A stretch of DNA of 64,000 nt, taken from Ramlibacter albus (GTDB taxonomy: Bacteria; Pseudomonadota; Gammaproteobacteria; Burkholderiales; Burkholderiaceae_C). The notes under the pieces were generated by a model. That model saw only the letters and a program-made list of their open reading frames with translations, ran no database searches and had not been told where the DNA came from. Below are positions 836-11,305 of this stretch, one piece after another. Numbering within the stretch: the first letter of the stretch is position 1; every line of letters starts with the position of its first letter. The translations under genes were made by a program, and so were the position numbers. The DNA lies in NCBI RefSeq assembly GCF_014297445.1, contig NZ_JACORU010000001.1, forward strand, positions 806,001 through 870,000. Reading direction: 5' to 3'.

Positions 836-1960
836 TCAGGCAAACAACGCCAGCAGCTCGCGCGTGTACGCCTCCACATTGGCCGGGTGCGCGGTATCCA
901 GCGACTGCAGCAGCTCGCGCGTGCTGCGCTTCGCGTCGGCGATGCGCAGGTCGTGCTCGGCATGCGCGCGCAGCAGCGCGGCGCCGCCCGCTTCGCAATC
1001 GAAACCCGGGTAGTAGTAGCCGTGGCCGCGCAGCAGCGGCGAGTTGTGCACGAGCGGGTAGCCGCCGTAGAGCGCCTCGTAGTAGAGGTAGTTCTGCGCG
1101 TTGGCCCACTGGTGCGAGACGATGCAGTCGCCGAAATTCGCCATGAACTCGTACACGGCGAAGCGACCTTCGAACGTGGCCACCCCGTGCTGCACCACGT
1201 CGAGCGAGCGCGCCATGTGCAGGAACTGCACGTGGTCCTTCAGGTGCAGCGTGTTGCACACGCGCAGTTGCTCCAGGAAGTTGGGTCGCCGGCGGTAGGC
1301 CTCTTCGCAGGCGAGCATCGGGATGATGCTGGTCTTGACCATGCACACGTTCGGCTCGAAGGCGCACACGCGCCAGCGCGGCTTGCCCGCGACGTAGCCG
1401 AACGAAGTGCCGGCGGGCAGGGAGCGGATGCCGATATCGAAGAACAGCGGCGTCCACAGGTGCGGCAGCACCTTCACCGGCGCGCGCGTGGGGATGCCGA
1501 AGTAGTCGCGGCACTGTTCCTCGTACTGCGGCAGGGTCCAGATGGCGTCGTACGGCTTGTGGTCGTAGAGCGAGGCCGCGGGCTTGCCGAACATCGCGCG
1601 CTCGATGTCGATGACGTAGTCGTTGCCCACGCGCATCCACGCATAGCGGCCGCCCCTGGCGCGGAAGGCCGCGGCCCAGTCGGCCGGGAGCAGCGCGCTC
1701 ATCTCGATGACGACGTCGAGCGACATCGCCTCGTCCAGCCCCACGCAGCGCAGCCCCGTGTGTTCCAGCAGCATCGCGGGGCTGGGCACCGCGGCCGCGC
1801 CGTGCGCGACGATGACCGCCTCTTCGACGGCGGGCGAGTGGTTGAACAGCTGTGCGAGGAAGGCGCAGTTCTGGAAGATGCCGTTTTCCCAGATCGACTG
1901 GGTGGCGTCACGCAGGTTCAGCGTGACGCCGACGCGCAGCTTGCGGGCGGGGGCGCTCAT
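836..1960 (-). CDS. DUF2827 family protein (third of three tandem paralogs), possible glycosyltransferase
   Basis: A 374-residue soluble protein with no signal peptide. It aligns with the two genes upstream throughout: an N-terminal strand and loop with IWENGIFQNCAFLAQLF, a middle FEPNVCMVKTS block, and a C-terminal block VSHQWANAQNYLYYEALYGG followed by YPLVHNSPLL. I recognise the family as DUF2827, which has no established function. The C-terminal pattern Glu-Ala...Gly-Tyr-Pro-Leu-Val resembles the acidic/Gly-Pro nucleotide-sugar site of GT-B glycosyltransferases; this is my inference. The start ATG at 1960 overlaps the stop of the preceding paralog (ATGA), so the genes are translationally coupled. 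It is the last gene of the adhesin cluster and is convergent with the GGDEF gene. Confidence 0.85.
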   Translation of the reverse strand: MSAPARKLRVGVTLNLRDATQSIWENGIFQNCAFLAQLFNHSPAVEEAVIVAHGAAAVPSPAMLLEHTGLRCVGLDEAMSLDVVIEMSALLPADWAAAFRARGGRYAWMRVGNDYVIDIERAMFGKPAASLYDHKPYDAIWTLPQYEEQCRDYFGIPTRAPVKVLPHLWTPLFFDIGIRSLPAGTSFGYVAGKPRWRVCAFEPNVCMVKTSIIPMLACEEAYRRRPNFLEQLRVCNTLHLKDHVQFLHMARSLDVVQHGVATFEGRFAVYEFMANFGDCIVSHQWANAQNYLYYEALYGGYPLVHNSPLLRGHGYYYPGFDCEAGGAALLRAHAEHDLRIADAKRSTRELLQSLDTAHPANVEAYTRELLALFA

Positions 1961-3066
1961 GCGGCCAGCCTCCGCCTGAAAGCCGCGACGTTCTCCGCGC
2001 GGTCCGGTGCGAGCGTGGCGAGGAAGGCTCTCGACGCGGTGCGGTATTCGCGCCAGTAGCCCGGCTCCTCGTCGCGCGCGCCAAGCAGTGCGCGGGCGGC
2101 ACCCAAAGCATCGAAGCCGTCGTAGAACAGGCCCGCGCCCGCATCGCGCAGGAACGGCGAGTTGTGCACCAGCGGGTAGCCGCCGTGCAGCGCGTCGTAG
2201 TAGAGGTAGTTCTGCGCGTTCTCCCACTGGTGGCTCACCACCGCGTCCAGCCGGAAGCGCCCCATGCACTCGGCGAACGCGACACGCGGCTCGAACGACG
2301 CGCGGCCGTCCTTCACCAGGTCCAGGCCGGCGGCCAGCGTGTTGAAGCTGGGGTGCTCCTTCATGTGCAGGCTGTTCATCACCATCATCGTGTCGATCGC
2401 GCCGCGGTTGGTGCGGTACGCCTGCTCGCACGCCAGCATGGGCACCATGCCGTTCTTCACGACGGAGATGTTGGGCTCGAAGATGCCCACGCGCCAGCCC
2501 GCGCGCGGCGAGCGGCTGCCCAGGTCGAACCCGAAGGCCTGCCCGCCCGCGGCGATGCTGCGCTCGAGGAAGGCGGGCGACCAGATGTGCGGCACGGCAT
2601 GCACCGGCACGCGCGCCAGCGTGCGCAGCATCGGCGCGCAGCTGTCCATGTACTGGGGCAGCGTCCACACCTCGTGCCATGGGGCACCCGTGAACGTGAG
2701 CCCGCCCGTGCGGCCGAAGAGCGGGTTCTCCGCGGCCATCGCGTAGGTGTGGCCCACCACGAACAGCACGAGCTTCGCGCCGAGCGCGCGCACGTGCTTC
2801 ATCCATTCCAGCGGCAGCTGCGCGCCCATCTCGATGACGACGTCGACCTTGTGCGTCACATCCGCGGGCCGCACCAGCGGCACGCCGGGCAAGGCATCGG
2901 CCATGCCTTCGGGCAGCGCGTCGCCGTCGCCGCCGTTGACGAGGTAGATACCGCCCACGCCCGGCGAGTGGCGCAGCAGGTGCACGAGGAACGCGATGTT
3001 CTGGTTGACGCCGCTGCTCCACACGTTGGAGCCGGGCGAGGCGAAGACGGAGATGCCGACGTTCAT
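1957..3066 (-). CDS. DUF2827 family protein (second of three tandem paralogs), possible glycosyltransferase
   Basis: A 369-residue cytoplasmic protein starting MNVGISVFASPGSNVW with SSGVNQNIAFLVHLL, the same N-terminal pattern as its neighbours. The family blocks are all present: IFEPNISVVKNGMVPML, then VSHQWENAQNYLYYDALHGG and YPLVHNSPFL. The DUF2827 family is of unknown function. The two-lobed length and the C-terminal [DE]A...GGYPLVHN signature suggest a GT-B-like fold (inference). Its stop overlaps the next gene's start by 4 bp, and only 7 bp separate it from the upstream paralog, so the three are one transcription unit. The copies differ widely in sequence outside the blocks, which suggests different substrates rather than dosage. 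Confidence 0.85.
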   Translation of the reverse strand: MNVGISVFASPGSNVWSSGVNQNIAFLVHLLRHSPGVGGIYLVNGGDGDALPEGMADALPGVPLVRPADVTHKVDVVIEMGAQLPLEWMKHVRALGAKLVLFVVGHTYAMAAENPLFGRTGGLTFTGAPWHEVWTLPQYMDSCAPMLRTLARVPVHAVPHIWSPAFLERSIAAGGQAFGFDLGSRSPRAGWRVGIFEPNISVVKNGMVPMLACEQAYRTNRGAIDTMMVMNSLHMKEHPSFNTLAAGLDLVKDGRASFEPRVAFAECMGRFRLDAVVSHQWENAQNYLYYDALHGGYPLVHNSPFLRDAGAGLFYDGFDALGAARALLGARDEEPGYWREYRTASRAFLATLAPDRAENVAAFRRRLAA

Positions 3067-3073
3067 GGCTGCC

Positions 3074-4219
3074 TCAGGTGAGCGGGGCCTGCATGAGGCC
3101 GTGCAGCAGCTCGCCGTAGGCCTGCGTGAGCGCGCGCTGGCCGGGCAGGTAGCGGCTCATCGCCTGGCGCTGGCGGTGCCGGTAGGTGTCGTGGCCGGCG
3201 TCGTGCGTGTCGAGCGCCTCGAGCAGGCGCGCGCAGCCTGCCTGCACGTCGTTGCCGGGGTAGAAGTAGCCCAGGTCGCTGCATAGCGCCGCGTTGTGCA
3301 CCAGCGGGTAGCCCTGCCAGCAGGCTTCCAGGTAGGCGTAGTTGAGCGGGTTGTCCCACTGGTGCGATATGACCACGTCGGTGGCGGCCGAGAGGAACTG
3401 CGGCGTGTCGTAGCGGCCCACGAACGCGGCCTTGTGGTCGCGCACGAGCGAGAGCTGGTTCATCAACGCGATGAATTCGGCGCTGTGCGTAGCCAGGTGC
3501 TCCGCGTTCGTGACGTGCAGCATGCCGACGAGGCCCGGGGCGGCGCGATAGGCCTCTTCCGCGATGAGGATCGGGTAGAGGCAGAACTTCACCACGTCGT
3601 GGTTGGGCTCCATCACGCTCAGCCGGCGCGCGCCGGTGCGCGGGCGGTATTCGCCGCCGCCCGGCAGCGCCTGCGCGGCCTGCACCAGCAGGACCGGGTC
3701 CCACACGAAAGGCACGATGCGCGGCTCGCGGCGGCGCAGCGTGCGGAAGAAGTGCAGGCTGTTGCCGGCCACCTGCGGGATCACCCACACCGCGTCGTAG
3801 CGCGGGTTGACGAAGAGCTCGTAGCCGAACATGGGGCGGCCGAACATCACCGACTCCATGACGCTCACGTACTCGCTGCCGCAGCAATAGGACACGAGCC
3901 GGGTGCCGCGCTCCTTGAGGTAAGCCGTCTGCTGCGCACTCACCTGCCCGCCCAGCTCGATGAGCACGTCCAGCGCGTCCTTCGCCGCATCGAAGGCGAC
4001 GGCAGGCCAGCGCTGCAGGTCCCACGGCAGCGCGGGCGTGATGGCCACGGCGGTGGTGTTCACGAGCACCACGGACGCCACGCCCTCGACGTGCTTGAGC
4101 GCCTCGGCCAGGTAGATCGCGTTCTGCTTGATGCCGTTGACCCAGAGCGACTCGCCCTCGGCGCCCAGCCCGATCGTGATGCCGATGCGCAGGCCGCCGT
4201 CAGTCCGGAAGGCGGACAC
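3074..4219 (-). CDS. DUF2827 family protein (first of three tandem paralogs), possible glycosyltransferase
   Basis: A 381-residue soluble protein. N-terminal LWVNGIKQNAIYLAEALKHV matches the paralogs' [IV]W..G..QN..[FY]L pattern. The middle block is MEPNHDVVKFCLYPILIAEE, and the C-terminal block is ISHQWDNPLNYAYLEACWQG followed by YPLVHNAALC. YLEACWQGYPLV is the most GT-B-like version of the motif among the three. The start at 4219 lies 20 bp inside the upstream small exported-protein gene, giving tight coupling. An in-frame stop precedes the ATG, so the start is well placed. Family function is unknown; glycosylation of the adjacent Ser/Thr-rich autotransporter is my hypothesis, based on position and motif only. 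Confidence 0.85.
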   Translation of the reverse strand: MSAFRTDGGLRIGITIGLGAEGESLWVNGIKQNAIYLAEALKHVEGVASVVLVNTTAVAITPALPWDLQRWPAVAFDAAKDALDVLIELGGQVSAQQTAYLKERGTRLVSYCCGSEYVSVMESVMFGRPMFGYELFVNPRYDAVWVIPQVAGNSLHFFRTLRRREPRIVPFVWDPVLLVQAAQALPGGGEYRPRTGARRLSVMEPNHDVVKFCLYPILIAEEAYRAAPGLVGMLHVTNAEHLATHSAEFIALMNQLSLVRDHKAAFVGRYDTPQFLSAATDVVISHQWDNPLNYAYLEACWQGYPLVHNAALCSDLGYFYPGNDVQAGCARLLEALDTHDAGHDTYRHRQRQAMSRYLPGQRALTQAYGELLHGLMQAPLT

Positions 4220-4646
4220 TGCCGGCCTCGACGCGCTTGACGCGGAAGCGGTTGCCGGAGGCGACGTGCATGTACTCGAACTCGTCGCCCTCGAGCTTCT
4301 GGACCAGGTAGGCGTTGATCACGTCGGGCTTGCGCGCTTCTGTGGGAAGGTCGTTCACCTCGGTCGTGACCGTGAAGTACATGCCGTTGGAGACGCCCCA
4401 GAGGCCGCGGTTCTTCAGCTCCGCCACCACCTTGCCGTTCTCGTACATGCGCGCGTGCAGCGTGAAAGTGCCGTCGGCGGCGCGCGTGGTGACGAAGCGC
4501 TGCAGCGCCTGCCGCGGCGCGGGCTGGTATTCGCCGTACCAGGTGCCGGCGGCCTTCTTCTCGGGATCGGAGTGCGTCTGCGACCAGGCCGGCGCGGCGA
4601 GCGCGATCGCGGCGGACAACGCGGTCAGGAACTTCTTCGCTTGCAT
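4200..4646 (-). CDS. Small exported protein of unknown function in adhesin cluster
   Basis: A 148-residue protein with a clear Sec signal peptide: MQAKK, then a hydrophobic Leu/Ala core, then APAWSQ with cleavage near residue 22. The mature part is about 125 residues of alternating polar and hydrophobic strands (TWYGEYQP, FTLHARMYENGKVV, MYFTVTTEVNDL, FRVKRVEA), consistent with a small beta-barrel or lipocalin-like periplasmic fold. I recognise no family. The ATG at 4646 has a strong Shine-Dalgarno (AGAGGAAG) 7-8 bases upstream. It sits 15 bp downstream of the autotransporter stop and overlaps the first DUF2827 gene by 20 bp. A periplasmic helper for autotransporter biogenesis is conceivable, in the way SadB assists SadA in Salmonella, but no similarity was seen. 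Confidence 0.8.
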   Translation of the reverse strand: MQAKKFLTALSAAIALAAPAWSQTHSDPEKKAAGTWYGEYQPAPRQALQRFVTTRAADGTFTLHARMYENGKVVAELKNRGLWGVSNGMYFTVTTEVNDLPTEARKPDVINAYLVQKLEGDEFEYMHVASGNRFRVKRVEAGSVRLPD

Positions 4647-4661
4647 GGCTTCCTCTCGTGG

Positions 4662-7600
4662 TTACTTCCAGCGGATGCCGATGCCCGCGCCCACGCTGAA
4701 ATCGCGCGTGTTGCTCGAGACACCGACGTTGTAGGTGATCTTCCCGGTGCGGTCGACGCCCTGGAACGTGACGGCCAGTGCCTTGTTGCCGCCGTAGTAG
4801 CCCACGCCCGCGCCGAACGCCATCTCGCCCGCTTCGTACAGCGCGACCCGCGCCGACGACATGGCGACGGACATCGCGACGCCCGCGTACGCACGGCGCT
4901 CGACGTCGCGCAGTTGCGAGACGTTCACCGCGTCGGTGGGCGCGATGCCCGGCGCGACATTCGTGATGCGCCGCTCGGCGCCCTGGCTGCCGACGGAGAC
5001 GGTGCCGGGCTGTTCGGCCGTGGAGCCGTTGCCGATGGCCACCGAGTTCGGCGCCGCCGCGACGCTGTTGTTGCCCAGCGCCACCGAATAGTCGCCCACG
5101 GCCTGCGCGCGGTCCCCGACGGCCGTGGTGTTCAGGCCCTGCGCCTGCGCCTGCACGCCCACCGCGACCGAGGAGCGTGCGACCGCCCCGTCGCCGATGG
5201 CGACCGAACCGGTGCTCTCCGCGCGCGCCTGGTTGCCGATGGCGACCGAGCCCCTGCCGATGGCTTGCGTGCGAGAGCCGACGGCGGTGGCGTCGTCCGC
5301 CATCGCCGCCGCGTTGCTGCCGACCGCGGTGGCGTTGTTGGCCGCCGCCGTGCCGGTGCCCGTGCGCGCGCAGTAGCCGAGCGCTGACGCGGCCATGCCG
5401 TTGGCAAAAGCGCAGTCGCCCGCCGCCGTCGCCTGCGCGCCCGTGGCGCGCGAGCCGCCGCCGAATGCACGGGCCCCTTCGCCGTCGACCTCGCCGCCGC
5501 CCAGGCGCACCTGGGTCTGCAGTGTGCGGATCTGCCCGTCCTGCACGCCGTGGCCGGTGGAGGCGGAGGTGGACAGCGAAGCGATGGCGCTGTTGAGGGT
5601 GTTGAGGTCGAGCGAGAGGTTGTCCACGCGCGCGGTGGTTGCGTTGAGGCTGGCGATCGAGGTGACGAGCAGCGGGTCGGGTGCGATGCCGCCGGCGCCT
5701 TGCACCCCCTGCGCGCCTTGGGCGACGGCGGGGGCCGCGGGTGATGGCGCAGGAGCCGACGCAGTGGTGGATGTCGATGCGGTCGTGGGCGCCGGGGCGG
5801 GAGCGGATGACGCGGCCGGCCCGGGGGCCGGGGCGCCCGCCGCCGAGGACGAGACCGACGTGGACAGCGATGCGACGTTCGCCGACAGCGCGGCCATCGT
5901 GCTCACGGTGCTGGCCGACAGCGACGCGAGCCCCGCATTGAGCATGGAGCCGACCGACGCGAGGCCGGAGGACGTCGATGTGGACAGCGAGGCGATGCTC
6001 GTGTTGGCCGCGACGAGCCCGCTGGACAGCGATGCGACACCGGACGACAGGCCGAAGAAGCCGGTGGACAGCGAGCCGATGGTGCTGGCGGCGCTGGCCA
6101 CGCTCGACGAGAGCGAAGCAGTCGTGGTGCTGAGGCCGGTCGACAGCGACGCTACGCTGCCGGCGACGGTGCTGAGCCCGGCCGCCGTGGCCGTGGACAG
6201 CGAGGCCACCGTGCTGGCCCCCGCGCTGAGCGCGCTGGAGGTGGACGTGGACAACGAGCCGAGCGCGCTCGCCGTGGAAGTGACACCGCTGGAGAGTGAC
6301 GAGATGCCGCTGGCCGCGCTGCTCAGGCCCGTGGACACGGAGGTCGACAGGATGCCGATCGTGCTGGCCGTGCTGCTCAAGCCGGTCGACAGCGAGCTGA
6401 TGCCGCTCGTGGCGGCGACCAGGCCCGTGGACGCCGACGTGGACAGCGAGCCCAGCGTGCTCGCGGTGCTGCTCAGGCCGGTGGACAGCGACCCGAGCGA
6501 GGTGCCGGTGGCGGTGGACAGCGACGCGATCGCGCTCGTGGCGCCGCTGACGCCGGCGGAGAGCGACCCGACGGACGACGCCACGCTGGTGGACAGCGAA
6601 CCGATGGATGCGCCGGTGGCGGTCGACAGCGATGCGATCGCGTTGTTCGCGGCGCCGAGCCCGCTGGACAGCGAGGTGACGGCGCCCTGCGTTGCGGCGA
6701 CGGCCGTGGAGAGCGAGCCCACCGCGGCGCCCGCGCTGGTGGAGAGCGAAGCCACGGTGCTGTTCGTTGCCGCGAGCCCGGTGGACACCGACACGAGCGA
6801 GGCCGCGGCGCTGGTGGACAGCGAGGCGACGGCCGCGTCGGTGCCCGTCGAGAGGGACGTGATGGCCGAGCCCGTGCTTGCCGAGAGCGACGTGACCGCA
6901 CCCGCTGTCGCCGCCAGGCCGGTCGAGAGCGTGTCGAGCCCGCTGCGGGTGCTGGTGGACAGGGAACCGATGGAGGTGCCGGTGGTTGTCGAGAGCGAGG
7001 CCAGCGACGCGGCCGAGGCGGAAGACAGGGACGCGATGGCGGCGCGGGAGGTGGTGGACAGCGAGGCCACCGCGCCCGCGGTGCCGGTGGACAGCGAGGT
7101 GACCGCCGTATCGGTGCCGGTGGACAGGGATGCGATCGCCGAACCGGTGCTTGTCGAGAGCGACGTGACCGCGCCTGCGGTCGCCGCCAGGCCGGTCGAC
7201 AGCGAGCCCAGCGCACTGCCCGTGCTGGTGGACAGCGCCGCGAGCGAGGCGTTCGTCGCGGTGGACAGGGATGTGACAGCGTTGTTCGAAGCAGTCGACA
7301 GCGACGTGACCGCGTTGTTCGAGGCGGTCGACAAGGACGTGATCGCGTTGCTCGCGGCGGTGGACAGGGTGTTGAACGTGTCGTTCGTCGCCGTGGACAG
7401 CGACGCCACCGAATCGGCCGTCGCGCCGATGGACGTGCTGAGCGCGCGAGCCGAGGTCGACAGCTGGCGCACCGTCGCCGCATCCCCGTCCTGCGCGCCG
7501 TCGGCCACGTTCTGCAGCCGGCGCGTGGCGCCGGTGGCGCTGTCGCCGATCGACACGGCGCCGGCGGTCGGCGTCGATCCGGTGAGCCAGGCCGCCTGGG

Positions 7601-10340
7601 TGGTGGCCTCGGTGCGCGAGCCCGCGCCCAGCGCAACCGAGTTGTCGTGCGTGGCCCGCGCGTCGCGGCCGATGGCGACACCGGCGGCGGAGGTCACCGC
7701 GGCGGCGTTGCCGATCCGCACCGTGGGGCCGGCGAGGCTCGTGGACAGCGAGCCGATGCCGCTTTCGGCCATGGTGGTTCGCGTCTCGAGGCTGTTCGTG
7801 CGCGTCCCCAGCGTGGCGAGCACACCTTCGGCGGTGGTGGTTCGCGACTCGAGCGTCGTGGCCCGCGCGCCCAGCGCCGTGATGTCGCTTTCCGCGGTGG
7901 TGGTGCGTGACTCCACGCTGGTGGTGCGAGTCCCCAAGGTGGCGAGGAGGCTTTCCGCCGTGGTGGTCCTCGATTCGAGGTTCGTGGCCCGCGTGCCCAG
8001 CGTCGTGAGTGTGCCTTCGGCCGCCGTGGTCCTCGACTCGAGCGCGGTAGCGCGCGTGCCGAGCGACGTGATCCCGCTCTCGGCGGTGGTGGTCCGCGAT
8101 TCGAGGTCGGTCGCGCGCGTCGTGAGGCCGGCGATGTTCGTGGTCGCGGTGCTGACATTGGCCTCGATGCCGTTCGCGCGCGTCGACAGCGATGCGACGC
8201 CACTCGTGGCGACCGCCACCTGCGCGACGGTCGCGCCGTCCGAAGCGAGCGTGCCGTCCGCCATGTTCTGGATGCGGCGCGTCAGCCCGCTGGCCGCATC
8301 GCCGACCGACACGACGTTCACGGTCGTGGCCTTCGAGTTCTCGCCGAGCGCGACGGCACCGGCGGCCTGCGCCCGCGCGCTGGACCCCAGGGCGACGGCA
8401 CCGGTGGCCGGCGCGCGCGAATTGGCGCCGAGCGCCACTGCCGACACGCCGTTCGACACGGCCAGCTTCCCGATGGCGACCGCGGAATCCGCACCGGACC
8501 CGGCGACGGTGCCCACGCCGAGCGCGATCGAATTGGCGCCTCGCGCATAGGACGAGTCTCCGACCGCGACCGAGCTCCCTCCTTCGGCCGACGCGCCCAT
8601 GCCCACGGCAACGGCATAGTCGCCCGCGCGCGTGTAGTGGCCGAGCGAGACGGCGTCGGCGCCGGTGCCCAGGTTCGACGCGCCGAGCGCCACGGTGTCC
8701 GAATCCCACAGGCGCGTCGAGATCGATGCGACGCCGGTCGACAGCGAGACGATCGACGACGTGGCGGTCGACAGGCCGCTGGTCACGGTCGTGGAGAGTG
8801 AAGCGATCGACGAGTTCGCGCCCGCCAGCCCGCCCGACACCGTTGTGGAGAGCGAAGTGACCGACGCGTTGGTCGCGGCCAGGCTGGTCGCGGTCGCCGT
8901 CGAGAGAGTCTTCAGCTGCGCGACCGTCGTGCCGTCGGTGTCTTCCGCGCCATCGGCCATGTTCTGGATGCGGCGGGTCAGGCCCGTCGCGCCGATGGAC
9001 ACGCCACCACCTGACGGCGTACCCCCATTGAGGTAGGCGGCGCGCGACGTGTCCGCCGTCTGCGAGCCGATGCCGATGGCCACCGAGTTGGCATGGCTGG
9101 CGACCGTGTTGGTGCCGATCGCGACCGCGCCGGACGCGGTCGCCTGGGCGCGCCGGCCCAGCGCAGCCGCATCGGTCGTCGCCGAGCTCTGGTAGCCGGC
9201 CGCCGTTGCACCCACGCCGGCGGCGCCCGCCTGCAGGCCGAGGGCGACGCTGTTGTCGGCGGCGTTGGCGAGCTTGCCGACCGCGACGCCCGTGTTGCCG
9301 CTGGTCGCGGACTGGCCGATGGCCACGCCCGTTTCACCGGCGACCGCGTTCGCGCCGACCGCCACGCCGAAGGTGCCCACGGTGGTGCCCGAGCCGATGC
9401 GAACCGACGGCGAGTTGAGGGCGGTGTCGAGGTCGTCGACGCTGGTCTGCAACGTGGCGAGTTGCGTCGACATGCCGTCGACCTGCGTGGAGATCGACGT
9501 GACCGTCGACATGCCGGTGGACAGCTGCGCCACCGTGACGGCGTCCTGGGCGGCCGCGCCGTCCGCGACGTTCTGGATACGGCGCCGCGCCGTCGCACTG
9601 CCCACCGACACGGCAGAGGCCGGAGCGGCGATGTTGGTCAGGAGGCTGGTTCCGGAAACTGCGGTGACGGTCGAATTCGCGCCGAGCGCGACGTAGTCCG
9701 CGAGGCTTGCGTTCGCCCGGTAGCCGAACGCCGCGGCATTGTTCGCGCTGGCCTTCGACTCACGCCCGAAGGCGACGGCGTTGGTGGCGCTCGCGGCGGC
9801 CTGGAAGCCCAGCGCGGCCGCATCGTTGGCGGTGGCGCTGGCGCTGCGGCCGATCGCGATCGATTGGCTGCCGCTTGCCAGCGACTGGAAGCCTTGCGCG
9901 AAGGAGTAGTCCGCCGACGCATTGGCGAAGCTTCCGACTGCGACGGCGTAGAGCATCGCGACGCCCGTGGAGGCATGGTCGCCGATCGCCACCGCCGCAC
10001 TGCCGGCCGCCACGGCGCTGGTACCGACGGCCACCGCGTTGTTGCTGGCGGAAGCGGCGTAGCCGACGGCGACGCCCGAGCTGCCGGCCGTGGTGGTGGT
10101 CGCCCCGCTGTTGCTGCCGATGCGGATGGACAGGACACCGTCCGAAGCCCCCGTCACCAGGACGTCGGCCCACGCGCTGCAGGCGCCCGCCAGCCCGAGG
10201 CCGGCGAGCAGGGCGCGAACGACCGCCGCAACCGCGCGGGACTTGCCCTTGCCCCGCCCGCGCGCATGTTCATGCGCCACGACCCACGTCCCCGTGGTGT
10301 CGTTCCACACCAACCGATATGCCTGGTTCAAGGAATGCAT
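4662..10340 (-). CDS. Trimeric autotransporter adhesin (YadA/Hia class) with ESPR signal
   Basis: 1892 residues. Residues 1-58 form an extended signal peptide: ESPR (YRLVWND...WVVAHEHARGRGKGKS), a hydrophobic core, then cleavage after CSAWA. A long head follows, built of ~14-residue left-handed beta-roll repeats (SVAIG/AVAVG motifs) and interrupted by neck motifs such as RRIQNVADG. Residues ~737-867 contain six 21-residue coiled-coil repeats (LESRTTTAES). Residues ~963-1497 are about 40 SLST units. A Pro/Ala-rich linker (~1500-1550) leads to a second head (~1593-1783) with Cys1643 and Cys1657. A last neck (RRITNVAPG) and a ~95-residue YadA anchor barrel close the protein. It ends GIGIRWK, with Lys after the usual terminal aromatic residue. 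The product trimerises in the outer membrane and displays the stalk and head. It is the first gene of the cluster with the small exported protein and DUF2827 genes. Confidence 0.95.
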   Translation of the reverse strand: MHSLNQAYRLVWNDTTGTWVVAHEHARGRGKGKSRAVAAVVRALLAGLGLAGACSAWADVLVTGASDGVLSIRIGSNSGATTTTAGSSGVAVGYAASASNNAVAVGTSAVAAGSAAVAIGDHASTGVAMLYAVAVGSFANASADYSFAQGFQSLASGSQSIAIGRSASATANDAAALGFQAAASATNAVAFGRESKASANNAAAFGYRANASLADYVALGANSTVTAVSGTSLLTNIAAPASAVSVGSATARRRIQNVADGAAAQDAVTVAQLSTGMSTVTSISTQVDGMSTQLATLQTSVDDLDTALNSPSVRIGSGTTVGTFGVAVGANAVAGETGVAIGQSATSGNTGVAVGKLANAADNSVALGLQAGAAGVGATAAGYQSSATTDAAALGRRAQATASGAVAIGTNTVASHANSVAIGIGSQTADTSRAAYLNGGTPSGGGVSIGATGLTRRIQNMADGAEDTDGTTVAQLKTLSTATATSLAATNASVTSLSTTVSGGLAGANSSIASLSTTVTSGLSTATSSIVSLSTGVASISTRLWDSDTVALGASNLGTGADAVSLGHYTRAGDYAVAVGMGASAEGGSSVAVGDSSYARGANSIALGVGTVAGSGADSAVAIGKLAVSNGVSAVALGANSRAPATGAVALGSSARAQAAGAVALGENSKATTVNVVSVGDAASGLTRRIQNMADGTLASDGATVAQVAVATSGVASLSTRANGIEANVSTATTNIAGLTTRATDLESRTTTAESGITSLGTRATALESRTTAAEGTLTTLGTRATNLESRTTTAESLLATLGTRTTSVESRTTTAESDITALGARATTLESRTTTAEGVLATLGTRTNSLETRTTMAESGIGSLSTSLAGPTVRIGNAAAVTSAAGVAIGRDARATHDNSVALGAGSRTEATTQAAWLTGSTPTAGAVSIGDSATGATRRLQNVADGAQDGDAATVRQLSTSARALSTSIGATADSVASLSTATNDTFNTLSTAASNAITSLSTASNNAVTSLSTASNNAVTSLSTATNASLAALSTSTGSALGSLSTGLAATAGAVTSLSTSTGSAIASLSTGTDTAVTSLSTGTAGAVASLSTTSRAAIASLSSASAASLASLSTTTGTSIGSLSTSTRSGLDTLSTGLAATAGAVTSLSASTGSAITSLSTGTDAAVASLSTSAAASLVSVSTGLAATNSTVASLSTSAGAAVGSLSTAVAATQGAVTSLSSGLGAANNAIASLSTATGASIGSLSTSVASSVGSLSAGVSGATSAIASLSTATGTSLGSLSTGLSSTASTLGSLSTSASTGLVAATSGISSLSTGLSSTASTIGILSTSVSTGLSSAASGISSLSSGVTSTASALGSLSTSTSSALSAGASTVASLSTATAAGLSTVAGSVASLSTGLSTTTASLSSSVASAASTIGSLSTGFFGLSSGVASLSSGLVAANTSIASLSTSTSSGLASVGSMLNAGLASLSASTVSTMAALSANVASLSTSVSSSAAGAPAPGPAASSAPAPAPTTASTSTTASAPAPSPAAPAVAQGAQGVQGAGGIAPDPLLVTSIASLNATTARVDNLSLDLNTLNSAIASLSTSASTGHGVQDGQIRTLQTQVRLGGGEVDGEGARAFGGGSRATGAQATAAGDCAFANGMAASALGYCARTGTGTAAANNATAVGSNAAAMADDATAVGSRTQAIGRGSVAIGNQARAESTGSVAIGDGAVARSSVAVGVQAQAQGLNTTAVGDRAQAVGDYSVALGNNSVAAAPNSVAIGNGSTAEQPGTVSVGSQGAERRITNVAPGIAPTDAVNVSQLRDVERRAYAGVAMSVAMSSARVALYEAGEMAFGAGVGYYGGNKALAVTFQGVDRTGKITYNVGVSSNTRDFSVGAGIGIRWK
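5850..7450 (-). repeat. SLST stalk repeats of the trimeric autotransporter (about 40 units)
   Basis: Coding repeats, residues ~963-1497 of the adhesin. Successive Ser-Leu-Ser-Thr motifs are spaced 11, 14, 18, 22 or 25 residues apart. Each of these is a sum of 7 and 11, as expected for a coiled coil mixing heptads and hendecads. Units are almost entirely Ser, Thr, Ala, Gly, Leu, Val and Ile, with scarcely any charged residues. Confidence 0.85.
7740..8130 (-). repeat. Six 21-residue coiled-coil repeats in the autotransporter
   Basis: Residues ~737-867 hold six successive units of the form ATxLESRTTTAES plus GITSLGTR, each 21 residues (three heptads). At the DNA level this is a 63-bp imperfect tandem repeat. 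Unlike the SLST segment that follows, it carries normal charged coiled-coil residues (Glu and Arg). Confidence 0.85.
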
Positions 10341-10525: not shown

Positions 10526-11305
10526 CTACGCCTGCCGCGCAGCCGTGACGACCTGGAAGTTGCCGAAGAAGCAGGTCTCGGTGCCCGCACGCCAGCCGCC
10601 CATGCCGTTCAGGCGGGCGACGGGGTCCTGCCAGTCCCACAGGGCGAGCCCCAGCGGCTCGAAGACCTTGAAGTAGGTCCAGGACAGCGCCTTGAGCACC
10701 CAAGGCTTGGGCTTGTGGAATTCGCCGAGGTAGAGCGTGCCGCCCGGCGCCATCAGGCGCGTGGCCTCCGCCAGCGCCTTGGTCTTCTCCGCGTGCGGCA
10801 GCTCGTGCAGCAGGAAGAACATGATGTTGGCGTGGACCGAGCCGGGCGCGAGCGTCATCGCGGTGGCATCGCCCAGCAGGTACTGCACGCGCTCGCCCCA
10901 CTGGGCGAGCTTCGTCTTCGCGTGGATCAGTTCGTTTTCGATCAGGTCGACGATGACCACGCGCTCGGCGCCCGAAGCGAACGCGGCCGCAGTCACTCGC
11001 GGGATCACGTCACCGAAAGCGCAGGATGTGATGAGCACCGTCTTGCCGCGCAGGTCCGTGGCCCGCAGGCCGGCGACGATCATCGACACGAGGCGGTGGT
11101 ACTGGAACAGCAGGATGGCGGAGATGACGGGCTGGAAGTCCACCATCTTGATCAGCCGCATGTTGGAGTACACGGGGTACACGTGCGCCGCCGGGTTGCG
11201 CTCGCCCGTGAGCGTGCGCACCAGCAGCGCCGCGCGCGTGAACACGAAGAAGAACAGCGCGGTGGAGGCCAGCACGAGTGCGAGCGCGGCAAGGGCGGTA
11301 AGCAT
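10526..11305 (-). CDS. RquA-like SAM-methyltransferase-fold protein (candidate rhodoquinone biosynthesis)
   Basis: A 259-residue protein. An N-terminal hydrophobic helix (LTALAALALVLASTALFFFV) suggests membrane attachment. The Rossmann core carries VLITSCAFGDVIPRV where class I methyltransferases have the Gly-rich SAM motif (ExGxGxG). It continues with a downstream acidic residue (VIVDLIENEL), then FFLLHELPHAEK, then LMAPGGTLYLGEFHKPKPW, and ends TCFFGNFQVV. This altered SAM motif with FFLLHE and [YF]H.P is the pattern I remember for RquA. RquA replaces the methoxyl of ubiquinone with an amino group to make rhodoquinone, used as an electron carrier to fumarate reductase under low oxygen. The N-terminal helix is not something I can confirm as typical of RquA. 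An ordinary quinone or lipid methyltransferase is the alternative. Confidence 0.6.
   Translation of the reverse strand: MLTALAALALVLASTALFFFVFTRAALLVRTLTGERNPAAHVYPVYSNMRLIKMVDFQPVISAILLFQYHRLVSMIVAGLRATDLRGKTVLITSCAFGDVIPRVTAAAFASGAERVVIVDLIENELIHAKTKLAQWGERVQYLLGDATAMTLAPGSVHANIMFFLLHELPHAEKTKALAEATRLMAPGGTLYLGEFHKPKPWVLKALSWTYFKVFEPLGLALWDWQDPVARLNGMGGWRAGTETCFFGNFQVVTAARQA

Follow-up and report, generated by a model that had tools for sequence, protein, structure and literature searches.

We examined a 64,000-nucleotide stretch of Ramlibacter albus DNA (NCBI RefSeq assembly GCF_014297445.1, contig NZ_JACORU010000001.1, positions 806,001 to 870,000; here, the window) and conclude that a five-gene cassette on its minus strand is probably an adhesin-glycosylation operon, in which three proteins of the Pfam family DUF2827 (PF10933), predicted to be cytoplasmic GT-B enzymes, would O-glycosylate the SLST-bearing stalk of a trimeric autotransporter adhesin (TAA) before its export. 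The observations behind this proposal are the linkage of the genes, the predicted GT-B fold of one DUF2827 member, conserved positions within the family, and an association between DUF2827 and the tetrapeptide SLST. An earlier interpretation of the window, made from its letters and open reading frames and here called the sequence-only reading, had suggested that the DUF2827 proteins are adhesin glycosyltransferases. Our results support this suggestion as far as sequence and structure prediction reach, and we infer the glycosylation itself. The SLST signature had not been reported in that reading, and its association with DUF2827 is new here.

Organization of the cassette and its adhesin

The cassette occupies positions 836-10340 and comprises, in transcription order, genes for the TAA (4662..10340, 1,892 aa, the proposed glycan acceptor), a small exported protein (4200..4646, 148 aa), and the proteins DUF2827-a (3074..4219, 381 aa), DUF2827-b (1957..3066, 369 aa), and DUF2827-c (836..1960, 374 aa), all on the minus strand. 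The first two genes are separated by 15 bp, the next pair overlaps by 20 bp, and a spacer of 7 bp and an overlap of 4 bp follow, in agreement with the tightly spaced same-strand arrangement, from a TAA to three DUF2827 paralogues, that the sequence-only reading had described.

The TAA passed the Pfam cut-offs for ESPR, YadA_head (17 stretches), YadA_stalk, and YadA_anchor, which identifies it as a trimeric autotransporter, and it accounts for the sole YadA_anchor match found in the 6.1-Mb source genome. Its coiled stalk is rich in Ser and Thr, as had been noted earlier; the two residues make up 45% of positions 1000-1530. Thirty-three copies of SLST start between residues 496 and 1588, most densely within residues 930-1591 (5568..7553, minus strand), the proposed acceptor region. 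Residues 930-1560 hold 27 copies, whereas 2000 shuffles average 0.75 and never exceed 5, and we therefore rejected Ser/Thr composition alone as the cause of the repeat. Spacings between copies are mostly 11, 14, 18, 22, 25, and 28 residues, which are sums of 7 and 11 and resemble those of a coiled coil. N-X-S/T is not enriched, occurring 18 times in the TAA (four times in residues 930-1560) vs. a shuffle mean of 21.2; N-glycosylation of the N-glycosyltransferase (NGT) type was rejected on this count.

The DUF2827 proteins and their predicted fold

All three DUF2827 proteins matched PF10933 over model positions 1-362 of 362, with E-values of 4.4e-138 (DUF2827-a), 8.4e-135 (DUF2827-b), and 4.7e-143 (DUF2827-c) and scores of 460, 450, and 477 bits, respectively, against a cut-off of 25. 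DUF2827-a belongs to subfamily 2 and the other two to subfamily 5, and since DUF2827-b and -c are only 32% and 35% identical to DUF2827-a, the paralogues appear to be old. Pfam gave PF10933 alone for each protein. NCBIfam gave nothing for DUF2827-a and -c and one weak match, far below the cut-off (E 0.014), for DUF2827-b. A sequence search of solved structures returned no match with DUF2827-a and six matches, all with E of at least 0.47, with the family alignment. The AlphaFold2 model of DUF2827-c (pLDDT 95.6, pTM 0.92), the one paralogue of the three that was modelled, has a GT-B fold: its two Rossmann-like domains can be superposed on GT-B enzymes of known structure, among which the comparison included GtfA (4pqg). 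A glycosyltransferase-like fold had been the expectation of the sequence-only reading, which had also singled out a [DE]A..GGYPLVHN block. Both bore up: across 262 aligned family members, H305, N306, and G314 are invariant and position 295 holds D or E throughout. K209 is kept in 259 of the 262. Subfamily 1 (L083, L087, and L090; 3/262, all from proteobacterial metagenome-assembled genomes [MAGs]) lacks K209 along with further conserved residues and perhaps represents an inactive partner.

Association of DUF2827 with trimeric autotransporters

We surveyed 399 genomes of the same order, in which DUF2827 exceeded the cut-off in 7 and YadA_anchor, scored for up to 15 candidates per genome, was present in 36 (one genome, G311, with a partial DUF2827 match below the cut-off, was counted as DUF2827-free). 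YadA_anchor was found in all 7 DUF2827 genomes vs. 29 of the 392 others (Fisher 2.8e-8), and in 6 of the 7 an anchor lay no more than 2.4 kb from the DUF2827 genes. For three of these six (G000, G113, and G280), the adjoining anchor is the only one found in the genome. The chance probability of an anchor within 6 kb in 6/7 genomes is ~4e-13, and we rejected chance neighbourhood of DUF2827 and TAA genes. Both co-occurrence and adjacency thus tie DUF2827 strongly to TAAs, as one would expect had the earlier suggestion been right. Among 369 genomes of the same class, DUF2827 exceeded the cut-off only in the source genome itself.

We also collected the best 80 of 384 DUF2827 relatives in GTDB contigs and searched their loci with a purpose-built anchor profile. 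A same-strand upstream anchor was present in 54 loci, a divergent anchor only in 4, and none in 22; the figure of 54/80 may be too low because the profile missed TAAs that Pfam finds (those of G280 and G113). Among the 22, L091 has an open reading frame with ESPR and 9 SLST before DUF2827, in L087 and L090 frames with SLST lie at the contig end on the other strand, and L040 has an RTX-like SLST protein. Nine others (six Collimonas and three Hydromonas-type loci) carry DUF2827 unlinked to a TAA. The contig ends no more than 1.5 kb upstream of the first DUF2827 gene in L037, L043, L055, L059, L093, and L094 and no more than 2.7 kb upstream in L051; L044 and L098 are unexplained. The gene caller was crude and produced antisense artefacts in GC-rich repeats, and neighbour families taken from it are leads only.

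The SLST signature across genomes

At least four SLST copies were present in 60 of 65 TAA frames from the same locus as DUF2827, and in 58 of the 59 that were at least 400 aa long. Below this level were four short frames (under 300 aa), of which three are truncated by contig ends, as well as the TAA of G113, with one copy. Most linked TAAs were picked by the anchor profile, which does not select for SLST because it was built from the barrel end rather than the stalk. Other TAAs in DUF2827 genomes, chosen among the matches listed, chiefly for their frame length or for an unlinked DUF2827, had at least four copies in 34 of 83 cases (one of which, L145, proved to be adjacent to DUF2827); L116, L131, and L167 had only 4, 4, and 5. 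In contrast, none of 92 TAAs from 44 DUF2827-free genomes had more than one copy. These controls were 60 of the 69 anchors listed for all 29 DUF2827-free genomes of the order sample that have an anchor (the nine omitted were open frames of 110-442 aa) and 32 over-cut-off anchors from 15 genomes of the class sample, where one genome with a sub-cut-off match was omitted. Counted by genome, a TAA with at least four SLST occurred in 6 of the 7 DUF2827 carriers in the order sample vs. 0 of 44 DUF2827-free genomes (3.9e-7).

An unguided count of 3-, 4-, and 5-mers over 20 genus-level groups returned SLST as the top tetrapeptide, at 5 or more per 1000 aa in 18 groups against a control mean of 0.06, and LST as the top tripeptide (20 of 20 groups). 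The four DUF2827-free TAAs with at least 25% Ser+Thr had 0 or 1 SLST each. Within the motif, swaps between Ser and Thr are rare (SLST 2,597, SLSS 241, TLST 56), and the flanking residues vary more than S-L-S-T itself.

The partnership mostly holds where DUF2827 is unlinked to a TAA gene. A TAA with at least 12 SLST was present in Collimonas G399, G400, G401, G402, G403, and G407, in G007, whose locus is Collimonas-like, and in the Hydromonas-type G404 and G405; G410 had only TAA fragments with 2, 2, and 0 copies. In G409, a Verrucomicrobia-labelled MAG in which we looked for a YadA anchor and found none, an RTX-like protein (L040:6365-8455) lies directly upstream of two DUF2827 genes. This single case, with GGxGxD-type repeats recognised by eye, starts with SLST/TLST repeats (4 SLST, 11 [ST]L[ST][ST]). 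Persistence of the partnership in unlinked genomes, the RTX-like protein, and the variable flanks all suggest that SLST may be a recognition site.

Proposed mechanism and alternatives

We propose that the TAA would be the substrate and that the three DUF2827 proteins would attach sugar to Ser/Thr of its SLST repeats in the cytoplasm. They would most likely act in sequence, one priming and the others extending or decorating, because three old and different paralogues have been kept as an ordered set. The glycosylated chain would then be exported by Sec, perhaps helped by the small exported protein, and the YadA anchor would insert the trimer, giving a sugar-coated coiled-coil stalk. An O-linkage is preferred because the acceptor is rich in Ser and Thr and N-X-S/T is not enriched. 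In this scheme we infer catalysis, the sugar, its O-linkage, the exact acceptor residue, the order of action, and the timing before export.

Several points weigh against the proposal. Activity, sugar, and glycopeptide are predictions, and a common fold is by itself no proof of function. The E-x7-E motif of CAZy family GT4 is not kept intact, its first Glu being mostly Asn (N287, in 94%, followed after seven residues by E/D295 in all), and we do not assign DUF2827 to GT4. L044 has DUF2827 and no TAA or SLST protein in view. The samples also have limits: near relatives dominate the locus set because the best relatives were taken, the linked frames are not independent (36/65 are from Burkholderia), and some TAAs were possibly missed by the bounded YadA_anchor survey. 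L107 and L088 just pass, with four SLST each. The same stalks also contain many GLSS (1,062) and GLST (497). In the distant genus g69, DUF2827 lies beside a Ser/Thr-rich TAA with only one SLST (G113) or eight (G280); a TAA fragment of G937, which belongs to another genus of the same family, has only five, along with many TLSS/TLSG. TAAs in G421 and G424 (Neisseriaceae-type loci) and in G422 were without SLST. The motif drifts in distant members, to ALST and SLSA in g69 and to TLSS and TLSG in G937, and together with the abundance of GLSS/GLST and the TAAs that lack SLST, this suggests that the core may be LS[ST] or [ST]LS[ST] rather than strict SLST.

The spacing of the motif bears on the strongest alternative. 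Across stalks, SLST copies are 18, 14, 11, 7, or 25 residues apart, all sums of 7 and 11 (7n+11m), and SLST therefore recurs at an equivalent position of the coiled coil, a register that could also suit a structural motif. DUF2827 proteins might then be adhesin-tied glycosyltransferases that place sugar elsewhere, e.g., on other Ser/Thr of the passenger, with SLST a mere coiled-coil repeat travelling with them. The apparent coming and going of the cassette as a block, its presence on plasmids typed conjugative, and the drift in G280, G113, and the G937 fragment would fit this explanation. However, among the TAAs counted, SLST-rich ones outside DUF2827 loci were found only in DUF2827 genomes, the repeat recurs in the RTX-like protein encoded next to DUF2827, and the flanks vary more than the motif. 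We consider a travelling repeat unlikely, though it is the alternative that deserves the most weight, and we favour the SLST repeat as the acceptor.

GtfB is an inactive GT-B partner in serine-rich adhesin systems, and the loss of K209 and other conserved residues in subfamily 1 would likewise be expected if DUF2827 proteins were GT-B-like chaperones, holding the long stalk until it is exported, rather than enzymes acting on the adhesin. Yet K209 is kept everywhere else and position 295 is acidic in all members, and TAAs of up to 4,435 aa occur in DUF2827-free genomes; we regard a chaperone role as very improbable. We think just as little of the notion that PglL, the periplasmic O-glycosylation system of Burkholderia, modifies the SLST stalks while DUF2827 does something else. 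Burkholderia PglL prefers serine according to the available part of PMC8423747, and the Ser/Thr-rich repeats of BCAM2418 have led to the suggestion that this protein is O-glycosylated (PMC7142374, in part), but SLST tracks DUF2827 across genera, and the terms "autotransporter," "adhesin," and "YadA" are absent from the main text of PMC8423747. Least probable of all is that DUF2827 proteins make surface polysaccharide and lie near the adhesin by chance or through common regulation, since the further glycosyltransferase- and methyltransferase-like proteins of some loci (Hydromonas type; L036 by Pfam, L035 and L044 by gene lists) have to be set against the proximity of anchors in 6/7 sampled genomes, the overlapping junctions here, the SLST association, and the lack, by Pfam, of any known polysaccharide gene among the five cassette genes.

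Conservation and apparent mobility of the cassette

G937 has a TAA anchor (its single YadA anchor), the small protein, and three DUF2827 genes in an order identical to that of the source genome. Its small protein is 53% identical to the 148-aa protein and holds the same position, and its DUF2827 proteins are 67% (first, -a), 51% (second, -b), and 67% (third, -c) identical to their positional counterparts, which are in each case the closest. In G903, a congener of the source genome, neither DUF2827 nor YadA_anchor nor the small protein was matched. Because G937 keeps the gene order while this congener gave no matches, the five-gene arrangement is more than chance. On a Burkholderia ambifaria plasmid typed conjugative, a YadA-like protein, an OmpA-family protein, and two other genes accompany two DUF2827 genes; a B. 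glumae plasmid, also typed conjugative, carries a long SLST-bearing "hypothetical" protein, an OmpA-family protein, a TPR protein, one other gene, and three DUF2827 genes.

In the window, 185 bp separate the adhesin gene from an upstream gene on the same strand, which encodes a UbiE-like methyltransferase (10526-11305). A Hydromonas DUF2827 locus (L036:11191-15873) contains a GT34-like transferase and methyltransferase-like proteins by Pfam, as if for a larger glycan, and L035 looks alike by eye. Such proteins would fit decorated glycans.

The 148-aa protein has a signal-like N-terminus, judged by eye, and no Pfam or NCBIfam match; a single-sequence fold prediction (pLDDT 43) was not used. TpgA, the OmpA-like partner of AtaA, is a small exported helper. 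SadB and TpgA are co-transcribed with trimeric autotransporters, according to the available part of a review (PMC8151025), and the 148-aa protein resembles them as a small exported protein of a TAA operon, although Pfam finds no OmpA-family or other domain in it. By this analogy, it may, like TpgA, assist the passage of the TAA across the periplasm. Elsewhere, an OmpA-family protein stands between adhesin and DUF2827 in L053 (7715-8374, Burkholderia), L091 (7126-7650, Acidithiobacillus), and the plasmids L292 and L293. Exported-looking proteins of ~200 aa with C-termini alike by eye lie beside or between DUF2827 genes in L029 (6946-7593), L104 (4064-4687), L097 (11113-11709), and L039 (6924-7673). 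Their carriers are Collimonas, Polaromonas, Cupriavidus, and Ramlibacter, and neither of the two tested (L029 and L104) had a Pfam match.

Comparison with known systems

In Gram-positive bacteria, clustered cytoplasmic GT-B enzymes, GtfA/GtfB and later transferases, act, probably sequentially, on the Ser/Thr-rich repeats of serine-rich repeat adhesins. The cassette resembles these systems in its acceptor and its clustered, predicted GT-B enzymes and differs in type V secretion and in enzymes of ~370 aa. NGTs of the HMW1C type, whose partners are HMW1/EtpA, have the GT-B fold that is predicted for DUF2827, and they too are cytoplasmic enzymes encoded beside a type V adhesin that they modify before export, as we predict for DUF2827. 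Unlike them, DUF2827 occurs as several tandem paralogues, for which PF10933 is the only Pfam match, and its proposed acceptor motif is SLST. The pairs Aah with AIDA-I and TibC with TibA exemplify the bacterial autotransporter heptosyltransferases (BAHTs), whose glycosylation is Ser-directed. BAHT systems, a class named in the part of PMC8151025 available, likewise combine an adhesin with a dedicated cytoplasmic glycosyltransferase; however, the DUF2827 partner is a trimeric coiled-coil autotransporter rather than a classical beta-helix one, and with no family match we do not place DUF2827 among BAHTs. The analogy with Aah/TibC and HMW1C drawn in the sequence-only reading is thus apt for the predicted function and fails for the family: PF10933 is the only Pfam match, the partner is not classical, and N-X-S/T is not enriched.

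SLST repeats themselves have been described, as far as the parts available go, in BoaA and BoaB (PMC2955633), in BMA1027 orthologues (PMC4021183), and in BCAM2418, whose O-glycosylation has been conjectured (PMC7142374); the passengers of these Burkholderia proteins bear the same repeat as the cassette TAA. Neither "glycos" nor "glycosyl" occurs in the text of PMC2955633 and PMC4021183 as available. None of the three papers came up when full texts were searched for DUF2827, which returned only a cysteine-database paper, unrelated by its listing; SLST in combination with adhesin and glycosylation led only to PMC7142374. We found no published link of DUF2827 to adhesins or SLST in searches that reached few subscription papers. 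The repeat is already in print, and its link to DUF2827 appears to be new.

The available part of the 2021 review of type V secretion names two cytoplasmic adhesin glycosyltransferase classes, NGT and BAHT, and notes that lone NGTs can modify trimeric autotransporters (PMC8151025). Whether DUF2827 arrays constitute a third, hitherto undescribed class in Gram-negative bacteria is, in our judgement, evenly poised. In such a class, two to four GT-B enzymes would build a glycan stepwise on a portable S-L-S-T sequon present in a few to ~200 copies per chain, the stalk would become a mucin-like rod, and the sequon would also work on other secretion routes, e.g., in the RTX-like protein. A single enzyme and a single peptide would suffice to test the prediction directly, and if true, it would offer a cytoplasmic O-glycosylation tool. 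It would also account for a repeat that has been on record for Burkholderia adhesins since 2010 (PMC2955633) and make sugar-coated adhesins recognisable from sequence alone. DUF2827, a Pfam family of unknown function, would then gain one, as a third cytoplasmic class dedicated to trimeric autotransporters and with an acceptor that can be read from sequence.
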